DNA of 50,379 bases from an uncultured Alphaproteobacteria bacterium (lineage in GTDB: Bacteria > Pseudomonadota > Alphaproteobacteria > CAAGCB01 > CAG-977). This document shows, piece by piece, positions 41,241 to 48,857 of this stretch. Position numbers and translations under genes: made by a program. Numbering within the stretch: position 1 is the stretch's first letter; each line of letters begins with the position of its first letter. Below the pieces are notes generated by a model. It ran no database searches. It was not told the origin of the DNA and worked only from the letters and a program-made list of their open reading frames with translations. The stretch covers positions 1 to 50,379 of the forward strand of contig CALXOZ010000015.1 of the NCBI GenBank assembly GCA_944390195.1, given 5' to 3'.

Positions 41241-41256
41241 TGGCATGTTTTTTGCT
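41241..41256 (+). promoter_or_regulatory. Sigma-54 (RpoN) promoter of the flgB operon
   Basis: TGGCAT-N5-TTGCT fits the -24/-12 consensus, with GG at 41242-41243, exactly ten bases, then GC at 41254-41255. Initiation would be near 41267, giving a leader of about 53 nt before flgB. Sigma-54 control of flagellar basal-body genes is established in Caulobacter. I did not find a clear activator-binding site. Confidence 0.75.
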
Positions 41257-41319
41257 TGGAAAAATGAAAAGCAATTATGCTATCTTAATAACTGGCGCTG
41301 TTTTGAAAAAGGATGCAAT

Positions 41320-41766
41320 ATGGATTTACAAAGTTTGACGTTATTCCGGATGAGTGCTGAAAAAATGCGCTGGCTGGCTCAAAGGCAATCCGTCTTAGCC
41401 GACAACATCGCTAATGCCGACACGCCGGATTTTATGCCTTCGGATGTCAAGCCGCTGGATTTCAAAAACGTTTTGTCTCAAGGCGCTCAGGTCTCTTTGG
41501 CGCGTACGGATCCGCGACATCTGGAACATTCGTCGGCTCAAACAAAAGCGCTTCGGACAAACTTGAAACATATTTCCCCCGTTGCCGGAGAAACGTTCCC
41601 CATAGAACAAAAGCGTCGTTCTTTTGAAACGGATATTAATAAAAACGGTGTCGTATTGGAAGAACAAATGGCTTTGATGGATGATACGCGAGGTCAGCAT
41701 GAACGTGTAACGGCCTTATTTAAGAAAAATGTTGCTTTGTTGGAAACGGCTTTAGGGGTAAAGTAG
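41320..41766 (+). CDS. flgB: Flagellar basal-body rod protein FlgB
   Basis: FlgB forms the proximal rod. The 148-residue protein begins with MDLQSLTLFRMSAEKMRWLAQ in two parts, then RQSVLADNIANADTPDF, the conserved N-terminal rod motif. The helical C-terminus carries VVLEEQMALMDDTRGQHERVTALF (two parts), as in FlgB/FlgC. The open frame starts 41 codons earlier, but ATG 41320, with AAAGGA upstream, gives the correct family start; the extra part overlaps the sigma-54 promoter. It is the first gene of the flagellar operon. Confidence 0.94.
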   Translation: MDLQSLTLFRMSAEKMRWLAQRQSVLADNIANADTPDFMPSDVKPLDFKNVLSQGAQVSLARTDPRHLEHSSAQTKALRTNLKHISPVAGETFPIEQKRRSFETDINKNGVVLEEQMALMDDTRGQHERVTALFKKNVALLETALGVK

Positions 41767-41785: not shown

Positions 41786-42196
41786 ATGGATGATTTGACG
41801 ATCAGTAAAACAATTGCCGCTTCAGCAATGAAAGCCCAAGCGCAGCGTTTGCGTGTGATTTCCGAAAATCTGGCGAATGCGGATTCTCTGGCTAAAACCC
41901 CCGGTGGACAACCCTATCGTCGTAAAACGGTTTCTTTTAAAAACGAGTTGGATCGTCAAAGCGGTGTCGAGTTGGTCAAGGTGGGAAAAGTGTCCCGCGA
42001 TGCAGGGGATTTGGAACGCAAATATGATCCTCATCATGTCGCGGCGGACAAAGACGGGTATGTTCTTTTGCCAAATGTGAATCCATTGATTGAAATCATG
42101 GATATGAAAGAAGCGCAAAGATCGTATGAAGCCAATTTGAACGTCATTTCAATTTCAAAGGATATGATGTCGAAGACATTGGATTTAATCCGTTGA
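41786..42196 (+). CDS. flgC: Flagellar basal-body rod protein FlgC
   Basis: The 136-residue rod protein has the N-terminal SAMKAQAQRLRVISENLANAD, broken here at residue 21, followed by TPGGQPYRRKTVSF and the C-terminal motif EAQRSYEANLNVISISKDM. GGAGGAA precedes the ATG. It lies 19 bp after flgB and is full length. Confidence 0.95.
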   Translation: MDDLTISKTIAASAMKAQAQRLRVISENLANADSLAKTPGGQPYRRKTVSFKNELDRQSGVELVKVGKVSRDAGDLERKYDPHHVAADKDGYVLLPNVNPLIEIMDMKEAQRSYEANLNVISISKDMMSKTLDLIR

Positions 42197-42213
42197 GATA
42201 GGGAAAAAAGGTG

Positions 42214-42528
42214 ATGATAAACGATATATCCAAAGCCCTGTCCGCATATCAGGCGGCGATGTCCGGACAAGCGGTTTCTTCGCAAGAGGCGCAAGAACAT
42301 TTGAATACTCAAGGATCGTTTGCCTCAATGCTGAATTCGGTCGTTACTCAGGCGGAAAAAGATAACAAGTATGCGGAACTGATGAGTATGAAAGCAATAC
42401 AGGGGACGGCTGATATGCAAGATGTTGTTATGGCGGTGTCGAATGCGGAAATTGCTTTGCAAACAGTCGTCGCTGTGCGTGACAAAGTCATTTCCGCTTA
42501 TCAGGAAATCATGCAGATGCCTATTTGA
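42214..42528 (+). CDS. fliE: Flagellar hook-basal body protein FliE
   Basis: FliE joins the MS ring to the rod. The 104-residue protein has the family tail GTADMQDVVMAVSNAEIALQ and TVVAVRDKVISAYQEIMQMPI. A GTG three bases earlier could also start it; I take ATG 42214 because GGGAAA is better spaced for it. It follows flgC by 17 bp. Confidence 0.93.
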   Translation: MINDISKALSAYQAAMSGQAVSSQEAQEHLNTQGSFASMLNSVVTQAEKDNKYAELMSMKAIQGTADMQDVVMAVSNAEIALQTVVAVRDKVISAYQEIMQMPI

Positions 42529-42543
42529 TCAGGGTTGTGCCAT

Positions 42544-42813
42544 ATGACTGAAATCATGGTGATTGAAATCGGTAAAAGTGCCATTTTTACGCTGTTATTG
42601 GTTGTGGGACCGTTGTTGTTGGTTGCTATGGTTGTCGGTTTGTTGATCAGTTTATTGCAAACATTAACTCAAATTCAGGAAATGACGTTGGTCTTTGTCC
42701 CGAAAATTCTGGTGGTTTTTATTTCATTGATTTTTTTGTTGCCGTTTATGATTGAACAATTGCGTACCTTTACGAACGGCTTGTTCGACCGTATCATCGC
42801 CTTGGGGGCGTGA
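42544..42813 (+). CDS. fliQ: Flagellar export apparatus protein FliQ
   Basis: FliQ is a two-helix component of the export gate. The 89-residue protein has GPLLLVAMVVGLLISLLQTLTQIQE in two parts around residue 30, ending with LTFVPK-like TLVFVPKI, the standard family motif. ATG 42544 removes three leader codons of the open frame. fliR starts within a few bases of its stop. Confidence 0.95.
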   Translation: MTEIMVIEIGKSAIFTLLLVVGPLLLVAMVVGLLISLLQTLTQIQEMTLVFVPKILVVFISLIFLLPFMIEQLRTFTNGLFDRIIALGA

Positions 42814-42815
42814 GT

Positions 42816-43577
42816 ATGGATTGGCAACAATCGGTTCTTGCGGAAGTATATCATTTTTTATTTGTTTTTGCGCGCTTGGGTGGCGCTTTTTTGTTTATGC
42901 CGTTCTATGCCTCCACTTATATACCGCGTAAAATAAGACTGATATTCGCTTTGGGGCTGGCGGTCGTATTGACTCCTTTGTTGCAAGATGAACTGCCAGC
43001 GCCTTCAAACAATGCGTTACTTTTGTTCAAAGGAATTCTGATTGAAATAACAGTCGGCGTTTTTTTAGGGGTTTTCCCGTATTTTTTAATGACGGCAATT
43101 GATTTGATCGGCGTGAATGTTTCCATGGCGACAAGTTTTTCAAATGCGACTTTACTGGATCCCCAGACAAAAGTGCAATCGACTGTTTTAACGGCTTTTT
43201 TGAACTTGTGCGCGCTTTTGTTAATTGTCGTTACCGGTTTGCATCATGTGATGATAGGAGCGGTTGTCGAAAGTTATCAGGTCTTTCCTGTGAATCAGGC
43301 GTTGTTTACAGAAGATATGTTGCAAATGTTGACGACAACTTTGGGATCGGCTTTCAAGTACGGATTTCAAATCGGCTCTCCTTTCATTGTTATGGTCGTT
43401 TTAATGTATTCCGCTATGGGGGTCATGTCGCGTTTGATGCCTCAATTAAACATCATCTTTATTGTTATGCCGTTGCAGGTGTATTTGGGATTGGCTCTTT
43501 TAATGATATCGTTTCCGATGATGATGTGGTGGTTTTTAGCGTTTTTTCAAGAAAGTATGTATCAATTCATCAAGTAG
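42816..43577 (+). CDS. fliR: Flagellar export apparatus protein FliR
   Basis: The 253-residue protein has about six membrane helices, with an early FARLGGAFLFMPFYA and a late MPQLNIIFIVMPLQVYLGLA (the PQLN motif), as in FliR/SctT. It assembles with FliP and FliQ into the export gate. A GTG at 42810 overlaps the fliQ stop, but a G5 tract at 42804-42808 is spaced for ATG 42816. flhB follows by six bases. Confidence 0.95.
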   Translation: MDWQQSVLAEVYHFLFVFARLGGAFLFMPFYASTYIPRKIRLIFALGLAVVLTPLLQDELPAPSNNALLLFKGILIEITVGVFLGVFPYFLMTAIDLIGVNVSMATSFSNATLLDPQTKVQSTVLTAFLNLCALLLIVVTGLHHVMIGAVVESYQVFPVNQALFTEDMLQMLTTTLGSAFKYGFQIGSPFIVMVVLMYSAMGVMSRLMPQLNIIFIVMPLQVYLGLALLMISFPMMMWWFLAFFQESMYQFIK

Positions 43578-43583
43578 GAAACG

Positions 43584-44678
43584 ATGGCTGAAGAACAAGA
43601 TGAATCTTCGAAAACAGAGGAGGCTTCCGAACGGAAGCTGGAACGGGCTAGAAAAGAGGGAAATGTTCCTCTTTCCGTGGAAGTCCGTAACTGGTTTATG
43701 TTGTTTGCGGCTTTGATCATGTTATGGGGAATGGCTCCGTTTATGATGGAAAAAGTAACGGCAGTCGGATTTAAGTTCATTGAACGACCTGATGAATTTG
43801 CGTTGGATCCTTCAGGATTGCGTAATTTGTTAAAAGAAACGTCATGGGATTTGTTTCTTATTTTATCAATGCCGTTAGGGTTGTTTTTGGTTTGGGCTAT
43901 GGCTTCGGCTTTGGTTCAGATCGGTTTTTTATATGCTCCCAAACGAATGGAAATCAAATGGGAACGGTTGAATGTTTTCTTAAATGCCAAAGATATTATA
44001 ACAAAAGCTAAAATCCTTGAAATGTTAAAAGGCGTTTTGAAAATAAGTGCTGTCGGTTATGCGGGGTGGATGGTTGTTAAACCGCGTATTTCGGACATTT
44101 TAAATACGCCGTCGTCGGATGTGTATGCAATTTTATCTTTGATTTATAAGCTGTTGTTGTTGATTTTGTCGGCAATGGTTATAATCGTGTTCATTATGGC
44201 TTTTGCGGATTATTTTTATCAGAAATTTTCTTATTTAAAGCGTCAGCGCATGACAAAGCAGGAAGTGAAAGACGAATATAAGCAATTGGAAGGAGATCCT
44301 CAGGTCAAAATGCGTTTGCGTACCATCCGGATGGAACGTTTGCGCAAGCGTATGATGGCAAATGTGCCGAAAGCATCTGTTGTCATAACGAACCCGACGC
44401 ATTTTGCCGTTGCTTTGCGTTATGCTCCGCAAGAGGGAATGGACGCGCCTGTCGTCGTTGCAAAAGGTCAGGATTTCATCGCTTTGAAAATACGGGAGAT
44501 TGCTCAAGCCAACGAAGTGCCTATCGTTGAAAATCCACCTTTGGCGAGAGCTTTGTTCGCATCGGTTGAAATTGACGCTCCGATCCCGACGGAACATTAT
44601 GCGGCAGTCGCCGAAGTCATAAAATATGTGTATCAGTTGAAAGGCAAGGCTTTGCCACAGAAAAAGGAGGCGGAATGA
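43584..44678 (+). CDS. flhB: Flagellar export switch protein FlhB
   Basis: FlhB controls the switch from rod/hook to filament export. The 364-residue protein has the charged start EESSKTEEASERKLERARKEG-like text (DESSKTEEASERKLERARK, 6-24) and four membrane helices (about 35-210). The cytosolic domain has the self-cleavage site NPTH at 270-273, followed by FAVALRY. It overlaps cckA by four bases (44675-44678), tying cell-cycle signalling to the flagellar operon. Confidence 0.96.
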   Translation: MAEEQDESSKTEEASERKLERARKEGNVPLSVEVRNWFMLFAALIMLWGMAPFMMEKVTAVGFKFIERPDEFALDPSGLRNLLKETSWDLFLILSMPLGLFLVWAMASALVQIGFLYAPKRMEIKWERLNVFLNAKDIITKAKILEMLKGVLKISAVGYAGWMVVKPRISDILNTPSSDVYAILSLIYKLLLLILSAMVIIVFIMAFADYFYQKFSYLKRQRMTKQEVKDEYKQLEGDPQVKMRLRTIRMERLRKRMMANVPKASVVITNPTHFAVALRYAPQEGMDAPVVVAKGQDFIALKIREIAQANEVPIVENPPLARALFASVEIDAPIPTEHYAAVAEVIKYVYQLKGKALPQKKEAE

Positions 44679-47104
44679 CGTATAACCTGATTGGCGGGTT
44701 GATGAGGTTTTTCGGCTTGAGAGGCTTTGTCAAAGATTGGGACACTGTCAAAGCGTTGATGGATAATGAAATTGATGCTTTGGCTTTGGTTTCGCAAGAC
44801 GGATTGCCTGTTTATATTAATACGGCGGGGAAAAAATTTTTTAAATCCTCTTCTTTGTTGGATTCCGTTTTAAAACGTGTCATTGACGATGAATCAAACG
44901 GATTGGCTGTTGCCAAGCTTCAAGCCGCTGTCGACAACAAAGCCGAGACTTGTGTTGAACTGATGATGAACACGAAAAACGATCCCGCTTGTATTTTGGA
45001 ATGGTACCGGATTTCGATAAAACAACTTGGCGTTGGAACGTTGTGGCGTGTCCAAGATATTACAGCGACACGGGCTTTGGATGTTGTCATGCGTCGGGAA
45101 ATGCGGGAATTGTCAGAGTTTTTAGATATTCTGCCTGTCGGTTTGTATCAAATGGATGCCGGCGGAATCATTCATTTTGTGAACAGGCGTTTTTGTGATT
45201 GGTTGGGGTACGGAGATGTTCAAGACCTTAAAGGTAAAAAGCTTACAGACATTTTAGCCGGTACGGATTTACCGGAATTGGACGGTTTGTGGCATGGAGA
45301 ATTAACATTCCGTACTCGAACGGGGAGCTTTTTCTGCGCGTTTGTCACTCATGCCGTTTATGATGAAAACGGAGAAACGATGTTGCGTGCCTGTGTTATC
45401 CGTGATGTTAAATCCGTTCGCAGTCGGGGACATGATCCTGTAAAAGAATCCGGATTATGTTTTTCCCGTTTATTTTCGGAATCTCCTGTCGGTATGGCTT
45501 TTTTGGATAAAAATAATAATGTTACGGAAATAAATTCGACGTTGCTCCAGATGTTTTCGCGTCAGCGGGAAGAAATGATCGGTGTTTCTTTGGACGATTG
45601 CATTGATGCCGACGATTGGGCTGAACTGAAAGACAAGATGGCGAAGGTTGTAACGGCAAGATTGTCGCGTGTCCATGCGGAAGTCCGTTTGAAAACGGAA
45701 CAGGAAAAATTTGCCGCCGTGTATATCACTCCGACAATTGAAGAAGATGAAGACGGGGCTCCGGATGTTTCCGGTTTTATTGTTTATTTTATTGATAATA
45801 CGGAACGCCGGATGTTGTCGATGCAGTTTGCTCAAGCTCAGAAAATGCAAGCGATCGGTCAGTTGGCGGGAGGTATAGCGCACGATTTTAACAACTTGTT
45901 GACAGCTATTATCGGATCGACGGAACTGTTATTACAAACGCATCCGGCATCTGATCCCGATTTTACGGAATTAATGAATGTTCATTACAGTGCCAATCGT
46001 GCAGCGAGTCTTGTCGGTCAGTTGTTGTCATATTCAAGGAAACAGCCGTTAAGCCCGAAATATCTGGATGTTACGGATATGTTTGCAGAATTGCATCATA
46101 TGCTCAAGCGGTTGTTAGGTAATAAAGTCAAAGTTCAAATTGAAAACGGTTATAATTTAGGATTTATCCGTGTCGACCGGACGCAATTTGATCAGGTTTT
46201 TGTCAATCTTGCGGTAAATGCCCGAGATGCCATGCCTGACGGGGGGGAATTTACAATATCGACACATTATCAAAAGTTTCCGGCGGGCATGTATATCGGT
46301 TCCGAAGAAATTATTCCCGGAGAATATGTTGTGATTGATGTTTCCGATACGGGATGCGGAATTGATGAAGAAGATTTACAGCACATATTCGAACCGTTTT
46401 TTTCCACGAAATCATGCGGAGTTGATTCAGGGACGGGGCTTGGATTGTCGATGGTGTATGGGAATATACGTCAATCGGGAGGATACATCAGTGTTAAAAG
46501 CGTTTTGAATGTCGGGACGACTTTTACGCTTTATCTGCCACGTCATGCTCAAGAGGATGTGCGCCGTTTGACAGATGTTTCGGATTCAGATGTTTCTCCT
46601 TTGGAAGATAAAGCGTATCAGCTTTCCAAATTTGTTCGGGCTAAACCCGATGTTCCGAAATCAGGAGAACAATTGCAGTTTTTCTTTGCCCAAGATAGAC
46701 CGTTGACACCTGTTCCCCCACACCTGCAAGACTTGAGCGGTTCAGGCGTCATTTTGCTGGTGGAAGACGAAGATGCCGTGCGTGCGGTTACGCGCAAGGC
46801 GTTGAGTTCTAAAGGATATACCGTTTTTGATTGTTCGTGTGCCCAAGAGGCTTTAAAAAAAATAGAAGAAGGACTGCGTTTCGATTTGTTGATTACCGAC
46901 ATGATTATGCCCGGTATGGATGGTTTGTCATTGGCTTCAAGCTTGCGTGAAAAAGGCATTTACACTAAAATTCTTATGACTTCGGGATTTTCCGAAGAAG
47001 CCGCCCGCGGGGAAATCAAAGCGATGCCGGATTTTTATTTTTTATCCAAGCCGTTTACTTTGAAAGAACTTGGCGAAAAGGTGAAACAGATTTTCGGAGG
47101 ATGA
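44675..47104 (+). CDS. cckA: Hybrid histidine kinase CckA
   Basis: CckA phosphorylates CtrA and CpdR through ChpT in Alphaproteobacteria. The 809-residue protein has PAS-like domains (about 30-130, 145-245 and 260-375). A DHp domain carries AIGQLAGGIAHDFNNLLTAI, the CckA hallmark (His403). The HATPase domain has NLAVNARDAM, DTGCGID and GTGLGLS, and the C-terminal receiver has the phosphoacceptor near Asp742 in LLITDM and Lys792. Unlike most CckA proteins I see no N-terminal membrane helices; the start MTYNLIGGLMRFFGL is only weakly hydrophobic. GGAGG precedes the ATG, which overlaps the flhB stop. Confidence 0.92.
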   Translation: MTYNLIGGLMRFFGLRGFVKDWDTVKALMDNEIDALALVSQDGLPVYINTAGKKFFKSSSLLDSVLKRVIDDESNGLAVAKLQAAVDNKAETCVELMMNTKNDPACILEWYRISIKQLGVGTLWRVQDITATRALDVVMRREMRELSEFLDILPVGLYQMDAGGIIHFVNRRFCDWLGYGDVQDLKGKKLTDILAGTDLPELDGLWHGELTFRTRTGSFFCAFVTHAVYDENGETMLRACVIRDVKSVRSRGHDPVKESGLCFSRLFSESPVGMAFLDKNNNVTEINSTLLQMFSRQREEMIGVSLDDCIDADDWAELKDKMAKVVTARLSRVHAEVRLKTEQEKFAAVYITPTIEEDEDGAPDVSGFIVYFIDNTERRMLSMQFAQAQKMQAIGQLAGGIAHDFNNLLTAIIGSTELLLQTHPASDPDFTELMNVHYSANRAASLVGQLLSYSRKQPLSPKYLDVTDMFAELHHMLKRLLGNKVKVQIENGYNLGFIRVDRTQFDQVFVNLAVNARDAMPDGGEFTISTHYQKFPAGMYIGSEEIIPGEYVVIDVSDTGCGIDEEDLQHIFEPFFSTKSCGVDSGTGLGLSMVYGNIRQSGGYISVKSVLNVGTTFTLYLPRHAQEDVRRLTDVSDSDVSPLEDKAYQLSKFVRAKPDVPKSGEQLQFFFAQDRPLTPVPPHLQDLSGSGVILLVEDEDAVRAVTRKALSSKGYTVFDCSCAQEALKKIEEGLRFDLLITDMIMPGMDGLSLASSLREKGIYTKILMTSGFSEEAARGEIKAMPDFYFLSKPFTLKELGEKVKQIFGG

Positions 47105-47881
47105 ATGAGTGCTTATTTTTTTAAAGTCGATGCTTTGATTTCATTGATAAAGCAGGCGGGAAAAGCTGTTCTGGATGTTTATCATCAAGATTTCGCCGTT
47201 TATGAAAAAGAGGATGCTTCTCCTGTAACGGAAGCCGATATGAATGCTGAAAAGATCATTTTTGAAGGGTTGCAACAGTTGACACCGGATATTCCCATTA
47301 TCGGAGAAGAACATGTCGCCGCCGGAGAAATCGGGGATTTGACACAAAACTACTTTTGGTTGGTTGATCCGATTGACGGAACGGCTGATTTTGTGAAAAA
47401 AAACGGCGAATTTACAGTTAACATTGCTTTGATTGAAGGAAAGATGCCTGTTTTCGGAATGGTTTATGTTCCTTTTTCAGATACGCTTTATTATACGGCG
47501 ACCCCTGATTGCGCTTACCAAGAAAAGAATAACACCAAAACTTTGCTGAAAACCCGTTTGATTCCGGATCAAGGATATACAATGTTAAACAGCCGCACTC
47601 ATTGCAATGAAGCGATCATAGCGGAAATGACAAAGGGATTGAAAATAGCGGAACATTATCCATGTGGCAGTTCTTTGAAATTTTGTTTGATCGCCGCTGG
47701 AAAAGCCGATGTCTATCCTTGTTGTCATACGACGAAAGAATGGGATACCGCTGCGGCTCATGCTGTTCTAAAAGCGGCGGGCGGAGAGGTCTATGATGCT
47801 GAAAAAAAAGAAATTTTGACATATCGGAAACCGGAACTGAAAAATCCCAGATTTATCAGCTTCGGGCAAAAAACATATTAA
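47105..47881 (+). CDS. cysQ: 3'(2'),5'-bisphosphate nucleotidase CysQ
   Basis: CysQ removes the 3'-phosphate of PAP(S), the by-product of sulfate reduction. The 258-residue protein is an inositol-monophosphatase-fold enzyme with metal sites in IIGEEH (Glu69), WLVDPIDGTADF (Asp88, Asp91) and KEWDTAAAHAV. The text GEFTVNIALIEG and YPCGSSLKFCLIAAGKADVYP match CysQ better than SuhB. Its ATG touches the cckA stop. It is one of four sulfur-linked genes in the window. Confidence 0.88.
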   Translation: MSAYFFKVDALISLIKQAGKAVLDVYHQDFAVYEKEDASPVTEADMNAEKIIFEGLQQLTPDIPIIGEEHVAAGEIGDLTQNYFWLVDPIDGTADFVKKNGEFTVNIALIEGKMPVFGMVYVPFSDTLYYTATPDCAYQEKNNTKTLLKTRLIPDQGYTMLNSRTHCNEAIIAEMTKGLKIAEHYPCGSSLKFCLIAAGKADVYPCCHTTKEWDTAAAHAVLKAAGGEVYDAEKKEILTYRKPELKNPRFISFGQKTY

Positions 47882-47900: not shown

Positions 47901-48857
47901 ATGTCTGAAAAATACGAAAAACAAGAGTTGCTTGTCCCGTTTGACTTGCATTCCAGTTCGGAAGAAACGCGCAACCGTTTCGCTTTTTTAATCAATACGG
48001 TTGCACAATATTCATCTGTCGGAAGGGATGTTTTGAATACGGCTGCCGACCAAGGGTATCAATTGCAGATGATGCTCATGTCCGGAATGAGCGGTTTCGT
48101 TTGCCCCGAAAATAAAACAATATATTTGAACTCCTCTTGTCCAGATGGCGTTTTGATTGAAACATTGGCTCATGAATGTCGGCATATCCAGCAACATGCA
48201 AAAGGCATTCCCGCATCCCATCATGAATTTGTTTTGCGCGATGCCGTTAAAGTCAGTCGTGCGAAAGAAGCCGATGCCGAAACAATCGGTGCGGCGGTAA
48301 GCTATGAAATCATGAAAAACGGGGGAAATGACGAAGCATGGAAAGAGCTTGAAAAAAAGGCTCCCAAGATTACGCAGGCGATGTTGGCGGCGGCGGATCA
48401 AGAGGCGTCGTTGAACTCGAAAATGATGCAAGCCGCTTTTCAAGGGTGGTATCAAAATAAAGCGATCATGGATATTTATGAAAACTCGTATATTATGACG
48501 GAATGTTTGGGGAATGCTTTGTCGGATATGAATAACGGCAAGGCAGCAAGTTATTTCAAACGTGAAATGTCTTCCGAACAGATAGTGCGCGCCATTTGTA
48601 CGGACGCTAAAGGGAAATGCTATTGGGCGGATTGTGTGGATGTATTGAACGATCCGATGAAATTGCGTGTTGATGAAAAAGCGATCCGATTGGCTGAAAG
48701 TGTAAACACCGCACGCGAACAAAGGGGATTGAAGCGTGATGATTCTTATCGGGATTTGTTCGTATACGGTCGGGAAATGAAAGATAAGGCACATAAAAAA
48801 GAACGGGAGGCAAATCTTGTTCAAGCAATGATGAATTTAAAGCGGGGAAGAGGGTAA
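47901..48857 (+). CDS. Putative zinc metallopeptidase-domain protein (HExxH; DUF6782-like)
   Basis: The 318-residue protein has no signal peptide and contains TLAHECRHIQQH, with HECRH (91-95) matching the HExxH zinc site. Downstream acids near 123-127 (KEADAE) could supply the third ligand, as in gluzincins. It fits the uncharacterised bacterial DUF6782 group of predicted peptidases, but I recall this from pattern and cannot test it. The C-terminus (about 285-318) is Lys/Arg-rich. GGAGGAGG precedes the ATG at 47901. It lies 19 bp after cysQ and 109 bp before recA. Confidence 0.7.
   Translation: MSEKYEKQELLVPFDLHSSSEETRNRFAFLINTVAQYSSVGRDVLNTAADQGYQLQMMLMSGMSGFVCPENKTIYLNSSCPDGVLIETLAHECRHIQQHAKGIPASHHEFVLRDAVKVSRAKEADAETIGAAVSYEIMKNGGNDEAWKELEKKAPKITQAMLAAADQEASLNSKMMQAAFQGWYQNKAIMDIYENSYIMTECLGNALSDMNNGKAASYFKREMSSEQIVRAICTDAKGKCYWADCVDVLNDPMKLRVDEKAIRLAESVNTAREQRGLKRDDSYRDLFVYGREMKDKAHKKEREANLVQAMMNLKRGRG

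Follow-up and report, generated by a model that had tools for sequence, protein, structure and literature searches.

The analyzed window (50,379 nucleotides) was contig 15 of the 38 in a genome of 2.12 Mb that was 98.6% complete, and its order was represented by 12 genomes, the window's own and 11 relatives. The forward strand carried flgB for the proximal rod (41320–41766), fliQ for the export gate (42535–42813; PF01313), flhB for the export switch (43584–44678; TIGR00328 above cut-off), cckA for a hybrid cell-cycle kinase (44675–47104), cysQ (47105–47881; TIGR01331 above cut-off) and a DUF6782 putative metallopeptidase gene (47901–48857). Three further genes were presumed from their position to be flgC (41786–42196), fliE (42211–42528) and the export-gate gene fliR (42810–43577). 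The gaps along flgB-flgC-fliE-fliQ-fliR-flhB-cckA-cysQ-DUF6782 ranged from −4 to 19 bp: flhB and cckA overlapped by 4 bp (ATGA), and DUF6782 began 19 bp past cysQ. The sequence-only reading had made cckA the last gene of the operon, which was incorrect, as cysQ began on the base directly after the cckA stop. The order from flgB to flhB, cckA and cysQ was retained in all 10 relatives with the locus covered; in the eleventh (G005), the contig started within fliR and flgB lay on a separate contig (L109).

A DUF486 (DMT superfamily) gene (41173–40838, minus strand) was divergent from flgB, and it stood beside flgB in nine of the 11 relatives, being absent there in G010, while the G005 piece fell short of the locus. 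In seven relatives (L036, L037, L039–L043), flhB and cckA formed one reading frame with a stop codon as the sole separator. The closest named relatives by FlhB were L191–L197, uncultured Alphaproteobacteria or proteobacteria with 49–52% identity. These had fliQ-fliR-flhB-cckA, and no flgB, flgC or fliE was detected within 7 kb before flhB, nor, in a scan of 1.6 kb about the start of fliQ, any sigma-54 site scoring at least 18.

A predicted sigma-54 promoter was located at 41241–41256 of the forward strand, with the letters TGGCATGTTTTTTGCT, the GG of −24 at 41242–41243 and the GC of −12 at 41254–41255. Its form, TGGCATG-N4-TTGCT with ten bases from GG to GC, agreed with the context TGGCAYRN4TTGCW at GG-N10-GC spacing, and the earlier description of TGGCAT-N5-TTGCT with exact spacing was borne out. 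Its closeness to flgB also held, but 63 bases and not 64 separated it from the ATG at 41320. With transcription taken to start 11–12 nt past the GC, the flgB transcript would begin at about 41267.

No other position of the window matched TGGCNYN5TTGCW exactly. When one mismatch was tolerated, 17 matches occurred against 13.2 expected, so the loose pattern alone was no proof. In the window's genome, TGGCNYN5TTGCW occurred 23 times (reversed pattern, 20) and GGCAYRN4TTGCW 17 times (reversed, 9). Over the 12 genomes of the order, GGCAYRN4TTGCW was not enriched (123 vs. 160 reversed), so most of its occurrences were due to chance. Pattern counts, above neither chance nor the reversed control, were rejected as proof. 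For a matrix of 23 columns, 31 other sigma-54-type sites from the order served as the training set, with those of flgB orthologues excluded. By this matrix, the flgB site ranked first among all window positions on both strands, and 100 first-order Markov shuffles gave 0.21 equally good sites per window. Its score of 15.0 was under that of every training site (20.5–30.7; n = 31), and the matrix was partly circular because the training sites had been picked by the strict pattern. Conservation was decisive: a sigma-54-type site preceded flgB in all 12 genomes. It had GG-N10-GC spacing, ended in TTGC and began 79 bases ahead of flgB in the window; among the 11 relatives this distance was 89 to 104 bases. 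The flanks of the relatives' sites aligned poorly, except for a second, CtrA-like element in the leader. Judged by the sequence evidence, the flgB site is a genuine flagellar sigma-54 promoter, ordinary in kind.

The sequence-only reading had proposed RpoN/FlbD-like flagellar control and suggested a search for rpoN, flbD and fliX; rpoN, fliX and a gene for an FlbD-like activator were found. The rpoN gene, whose absence had been named as grounds against the proposal, encoded activator-interaction, core-binding and DNA-binding domains with the RpoN box ARRTVAKYRE intact, so the proposal was not refuted on that ground. The sigma-54 activator family had three matches in the window's genome. One was strong (E 4.3e-72), and the other two (E 4.0e-6 and 5.5e-5) were probably other ATPases. 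The strong match was a protein of 439 aa that carries GAFTGA, and its best NCBIfam match by far was FlbD (NF050807; residues 1–435; 710 bits, curated cut-off 750). Among the matches listed (E to ~1e-45), there was one activator per genome in the 12 genomes of the order and seven of L191–L197. The flbD gene sat in a run that we take to be fliF-fliG-fliH-fliN-flbD-flhA, the names being partly assumed. FliX was found in all 12 genomes, and fliX was divergent from flgI in the window's genome. A search around the sites for the FlbD enhancer (ftr) gave no convincing shared motif, and no ftr consensus was found in the literature search.

Across the order, 116 distinct GGCAYRN4TTGCW sites were examined, and 29 lay in no ORF and had the start of one at most 50 bp away. 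Twenty-one of these preceded flagellar genes (8 fliK, 6 a second hook-like gene, 3 flgI, 3 presumably flgF by the N-terminus, and 1 flagellin, in genome G011), 7 preceded one conserved unknown protein and 1 a NUDIX gene. For two further sites (L106 and L135), the assignment was made by eye. With more than 50 bp to the gene start, the flgB sites stood farther out than these 29. The strict intergenic sites thus appear to serve mostly flagellar genes, and hook, ring and flagellin genes of the order carried sites as in an FlbD/FliX regulon.

The conserved unknown protein (~283 aa; L033:8054–8905, minus strand) had no Pfam match. A sigma-54-type site was just upstream of it in seven genomes of the order and, by eye, in an eighth (L106), and in the window's genome its gene was divergent from that of a 209-aa OmpR-type regulator. 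It may be a candidate new flagellar gene. The second hook-like (FlgE) gene (L032:1971–3239, minus strand) lay apart from the other flagellar clusters read and had its own sigma-54-type site, a pairing repeated in five more loci of the order. The NUDIX gene (L140:1000–1670, in G010), with a strict site 28 bp upstream, was the one clearly non-flagellar case among the 29.

From the site, the genes and their spacing, all read directly in the DNA, we infer that the promoter is used, that FlbD activates it and that the genes are co-transcribed. With a probability of roughly three in four, 41241–41256 would be a working sigma-54 promoter from which FlbD and sigma-54 drive flgBC-fliE-fliQR-flhB-cckA. 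RpoN-RNA polymerase would wait at the site until FlbD, with FliX as the assembly sensor, opened the complex. The product would be a single message of flgB-flgC-fliE-fliQ-fliR-flhB-cckA, probably continuing into cysQ.

In all 11 relatives, TTCA-N6/7-TTAA, with seven of the eight letters of the CtrA box, lay between the sigma-54 site and flgB. The hexamer NANNNT began 26 nt from the box start in all 11 and read CACAAT in seven. Nearly the same box was found in Magnetospirillum (L207; TTCACCGTTTCTTAA) and Telmatospirillum (L211; TTCACCGTTTGTTAA). This opens a second reading, namely dual control, in which most cckA expression comes from a further promoter of the CtrA or housekeeping type, sited in the leader or within the operon, and sigma-54 adds a late boost. 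Full dependence of the kinase on the flagellum would also be risky, as cckA is essential in Caulobacter according to the available part of one report (PMC12421884). Against this, the shuffle P for single leaders ranged from 0.003 to 0.57 and was below 0.05 in only 4 of the 11 relatives, so that the case for the element rests on its shared position. In the window's own leader (41257–41319), no such element was recognizable: the best combined match had 4/8 box letters (shuffle P 0.80), and the best 7-spaced box alone had 6/8, short of a CtrA box. We regard dual control as a serious contender with somewhat less than even odds. On the preferred reading, the window's operon would seem to depend on sigma-54 alone, because its genome has no recognizable CtrA box there.

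The CtrA of the window's genome was clear (NF045991; 389 bits, cut-off 350). A ChpT-like protein reached 25 to 26 bits with PF10090, over the cut-off of 22.9, and 42 bits in NCBIfam, under the cut-off of 240. The best NCBIfam match of CckA was NF046020 (569 bits, under the cut-off of 1000), which began only at profile position 83, without the N-terminal part; the protein had PAS, HisKA, HATPase and receiver domains. No hydrophobic N-terminal helix was found in CckA of the window's genome and the 10 relatives judged, whereas 43 of 53 other loci of the class had at least one. A soluble CckA would be unusual.

The sequence-only reading had placed cckA partly under flagellar control. The 4-bp overlap favors this and makes it very likely that cckA shares a transcript with flhB. 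The claim is weaker for the 11 of 12 genomes with the second CtrA-like element, where the kinase could escape flagellar control. A different reading confines the output of the sigma-54 site to the flagellar genes and gives cckA its own promoter within flhB, with minor read-through from upstream. A sigma-70-like match (TTGACG-N17-CATTAT; 44572–44600) within flhB makes a separate cckA promoter possible. It was one of 15 such matches against 13.8 expected, which is chance level, and the tight flhB-cckA adjacency was widespread across all promoter types, so this reading is unlikely. Among the judged loci, the window's order included, cckA lay within 200 bp after flhB in 12/17 sigma-54-only, 32/48 CtrA-only, 11/12 both-type and 1/2 neither-type loci. 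An association of ctrA, cckA and chpT with flagellar genes is described for Rhodospirillum rubrum in the accessible text of one paper (PMC12363192), where cckA likewise adjoins flagellar genes; that text does not deal with the operon's promoter. The window's contribution is the promoter.

Instead of a CtrA box, the relatives' leader element might be an FlbD enhancer placed past the transcription start, an arrangement known from activators of the FlrC type, and the element adjoins the sigma-54 promoter. However, FlbD must serve several promoters, yet in 8 of the 12 genomes a pattern for the element had a single occurrence, the one before flgB. Similar boxes also preceded flgB where no sigma-54 site was present; we consider this reading quite improbable. 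Finally, that the flgB match is a chance or relic sequence unused by RpoN, for which the chance frequency of loose matches, the excess of the reversed control over strict matches in 12 genomes and the score under all training sites may speak, is highly improbable given its retention before flgB throughout the order. The working sigma-54 promoter remains the preferred reading.

Upstream of fliF, no sigma-54 site was found within 400 bp in the order (best 17/20; ~120 bp covered in G007). TTAA-type boxes were seen by eye before fliF in 11 of the 12 genomes, and a fixed CtrA-promoter pattern matched directly before fliF in five. As a finder of the regulon, this fixed pattern was rejected (52 matches vs. 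59 for the reversed control over 12 genomes). A scripted test gave a shuffle P below 0.05 in only 3 of the 12 fliF upstreams, the window's genome not being among them. The script accepted a −10 hexamer only with A in second and T in sixth place, so the evidence for a fliF box is the by-eye reading. These sequences suggest that the fliF-flbD operon is CtrA-driven. With a CtrA-like box and no sigma-54 site before that operon, the likely order would be CtrA, then FlbD, then flgB to cckA, then CckA, and back to CtrA.

The upstreams of flgB were then compared across the class, in which a FlgB profile search was positive in at least 216 of 386 genomes. From one scan, the survey took 25 named loci whose cluster included flgB; to these were added 25 fetched automatically (five of the window's own order left out) and 55 hand-picked from additional families among the best matches listed, so that weak FlgB families were under-sampled. 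After two duplicates were removed, 103 other upstreams remained. With thresholds of at least 18/20 for the sigma-54 site and at least 7/8 for the CtrA box in the 200 bp before flgB, 28 had a sigma-54 site (1.4 expected) and 79 a CtrA-like box (10.2 expected); eight had both and four neither. Six neighboring 200-bp windows held 0 to 4 sigma-54 sites and 1 to 15 CtrA boxes.

The two types excluded each other (Fisher 2e-11, relatedness ignored). At a CtrA threshold of 8/8 the exclusion was weak, with P of 0.04 to 0.05 at sigma-54 thresholds of 17 to 19 and 0.44 at 20. A quick tree built from FlgB, FlgC and FliQ (115 rows, root not inferred) required at least 10 changes of the sigma-54 state and 16 of the CtrA state. 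Only five independent pairs were available on well-supported branches; on average, their members had opposite CtrA states in 2.2 pairs and the same state in 1.0. This test was not significant and lacked power, and the Fisher value thus overstates the exclusion. The order grouped, with support, with L369 (sigma-54) and L379 (both types), and this group was near the CtrA-type Magnetospirillum (L207) and Telmatospirillum (L211). On this unrooted tree, the simplest story would be that sigma-54 was gained in the group of the order, L369 and L379, and that the CtrA box was then lost in single lines.

Work by Boyd and Gober in 2001 is said to have found Caulobacter flgBC-fliE to be CtrA-driven. In the parts of the cited papers available to us, Caulobacter fliQ-fliR-flhB is class II (PMC12421884), its early MS-ring, switch and secretion-system genes are driven by CtrA (PMC3096577; PMC3930126), and FliX restrains FlbD until the early structure is complete (PMC3930126; PMC3096577). 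The comparison with Caulobacter made in the sequence-only reading was half right: it failed for fliQ-fliR-flhB, which there belongs to an early, CtrA-class operon. As for Caulobacter class III/IV genes, the order has RpoN, an FlbD-like activator and FliX, and −24/−12 sites before fliK, flgI, flgF, hook-like and flagellin genes; unlike in Caulobacter, flgBC-fliE, fliQ-fliR-flhB and cckA of the window stand behind a sigma-54 site. From the same kind of partial text, flagellar genes are CtrA-controlled in all orders studied (PMC8116508), and rod genes are generally counted as class III or sigma-54-dependent (PMC3096577; PMC6180460; PMC7064773), so a sigma-54 site at flgB alone is not odd.

The flgB2 promoter of Rhodobacter sphaeroides is CtrA-driven according to the available excerpt (PMC6180460). 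The gene is the same, and the window's relatives carry a box of the TTAA-N6/7-TTAA kind, whereas the window's genome has no recognizable box and has a sigma-54 site. In Vibrio cholerae and Pseudomonas, flgB operons are described as controlled by FlrBC or FleSR with sigma-54 (PMC7064773). As proposed for the window, the rod operon headed by flgB there has a sigma-54 promoter that is subject to an assembly checkpoint, but the export genes are transcribed before the FlrBC/FleSR step and outside the flgB operon, and the text available mentions no cell-cycle kinase in that operon. Another motif, which the authors describe as novel, precedes flgB in Methylosinus sporium, as far as the accessible text goes (PMC12403871). 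Neither a sigma-54 promoter for an alphaproteobacterial flgB-cckA operon nor a CtrA/sigma-54 swap at flgB-cckA was found in the literature searched, from which subscription journals were largely absent.

Two features make the site interesting: it precedes export genes and cckA, and it alternates with a CtrA-like box. A wider reading is that the flgB-to-cckA operon of this lineage was rewired from CtrA to sigma-54/FlbD, in a swap repeated within the Alphaproteobacteria. The kinase promoter would then be gated by flagellar assembly in a closed CtrA-FlbD-CckA circuit, with fliQ-fliR-flhB behind the checkpoint that itself needs the export apparatus. We advance this tentatively, as more probably wrong than right in its entirety. 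If fliF-flbD is CtrA-driven, CtrA, FlbD and CckA would form a loop, and the export genes would stand behind their own assembly checkpoint. In the polar flagellates studied, the secretion-apparatus genes come first and the sigma-54 rod and hook genes follow a completion signal, according to the portion of the source available (PMC7064773). Three export genes and a cell-cycle kinase behind sigma-54 would break that order, and such an operon would require leaky initial expression, an additional promoter or another kind of checkpoint signal. The survey provides a list of genomes of either promoter type, which makes the question testable.
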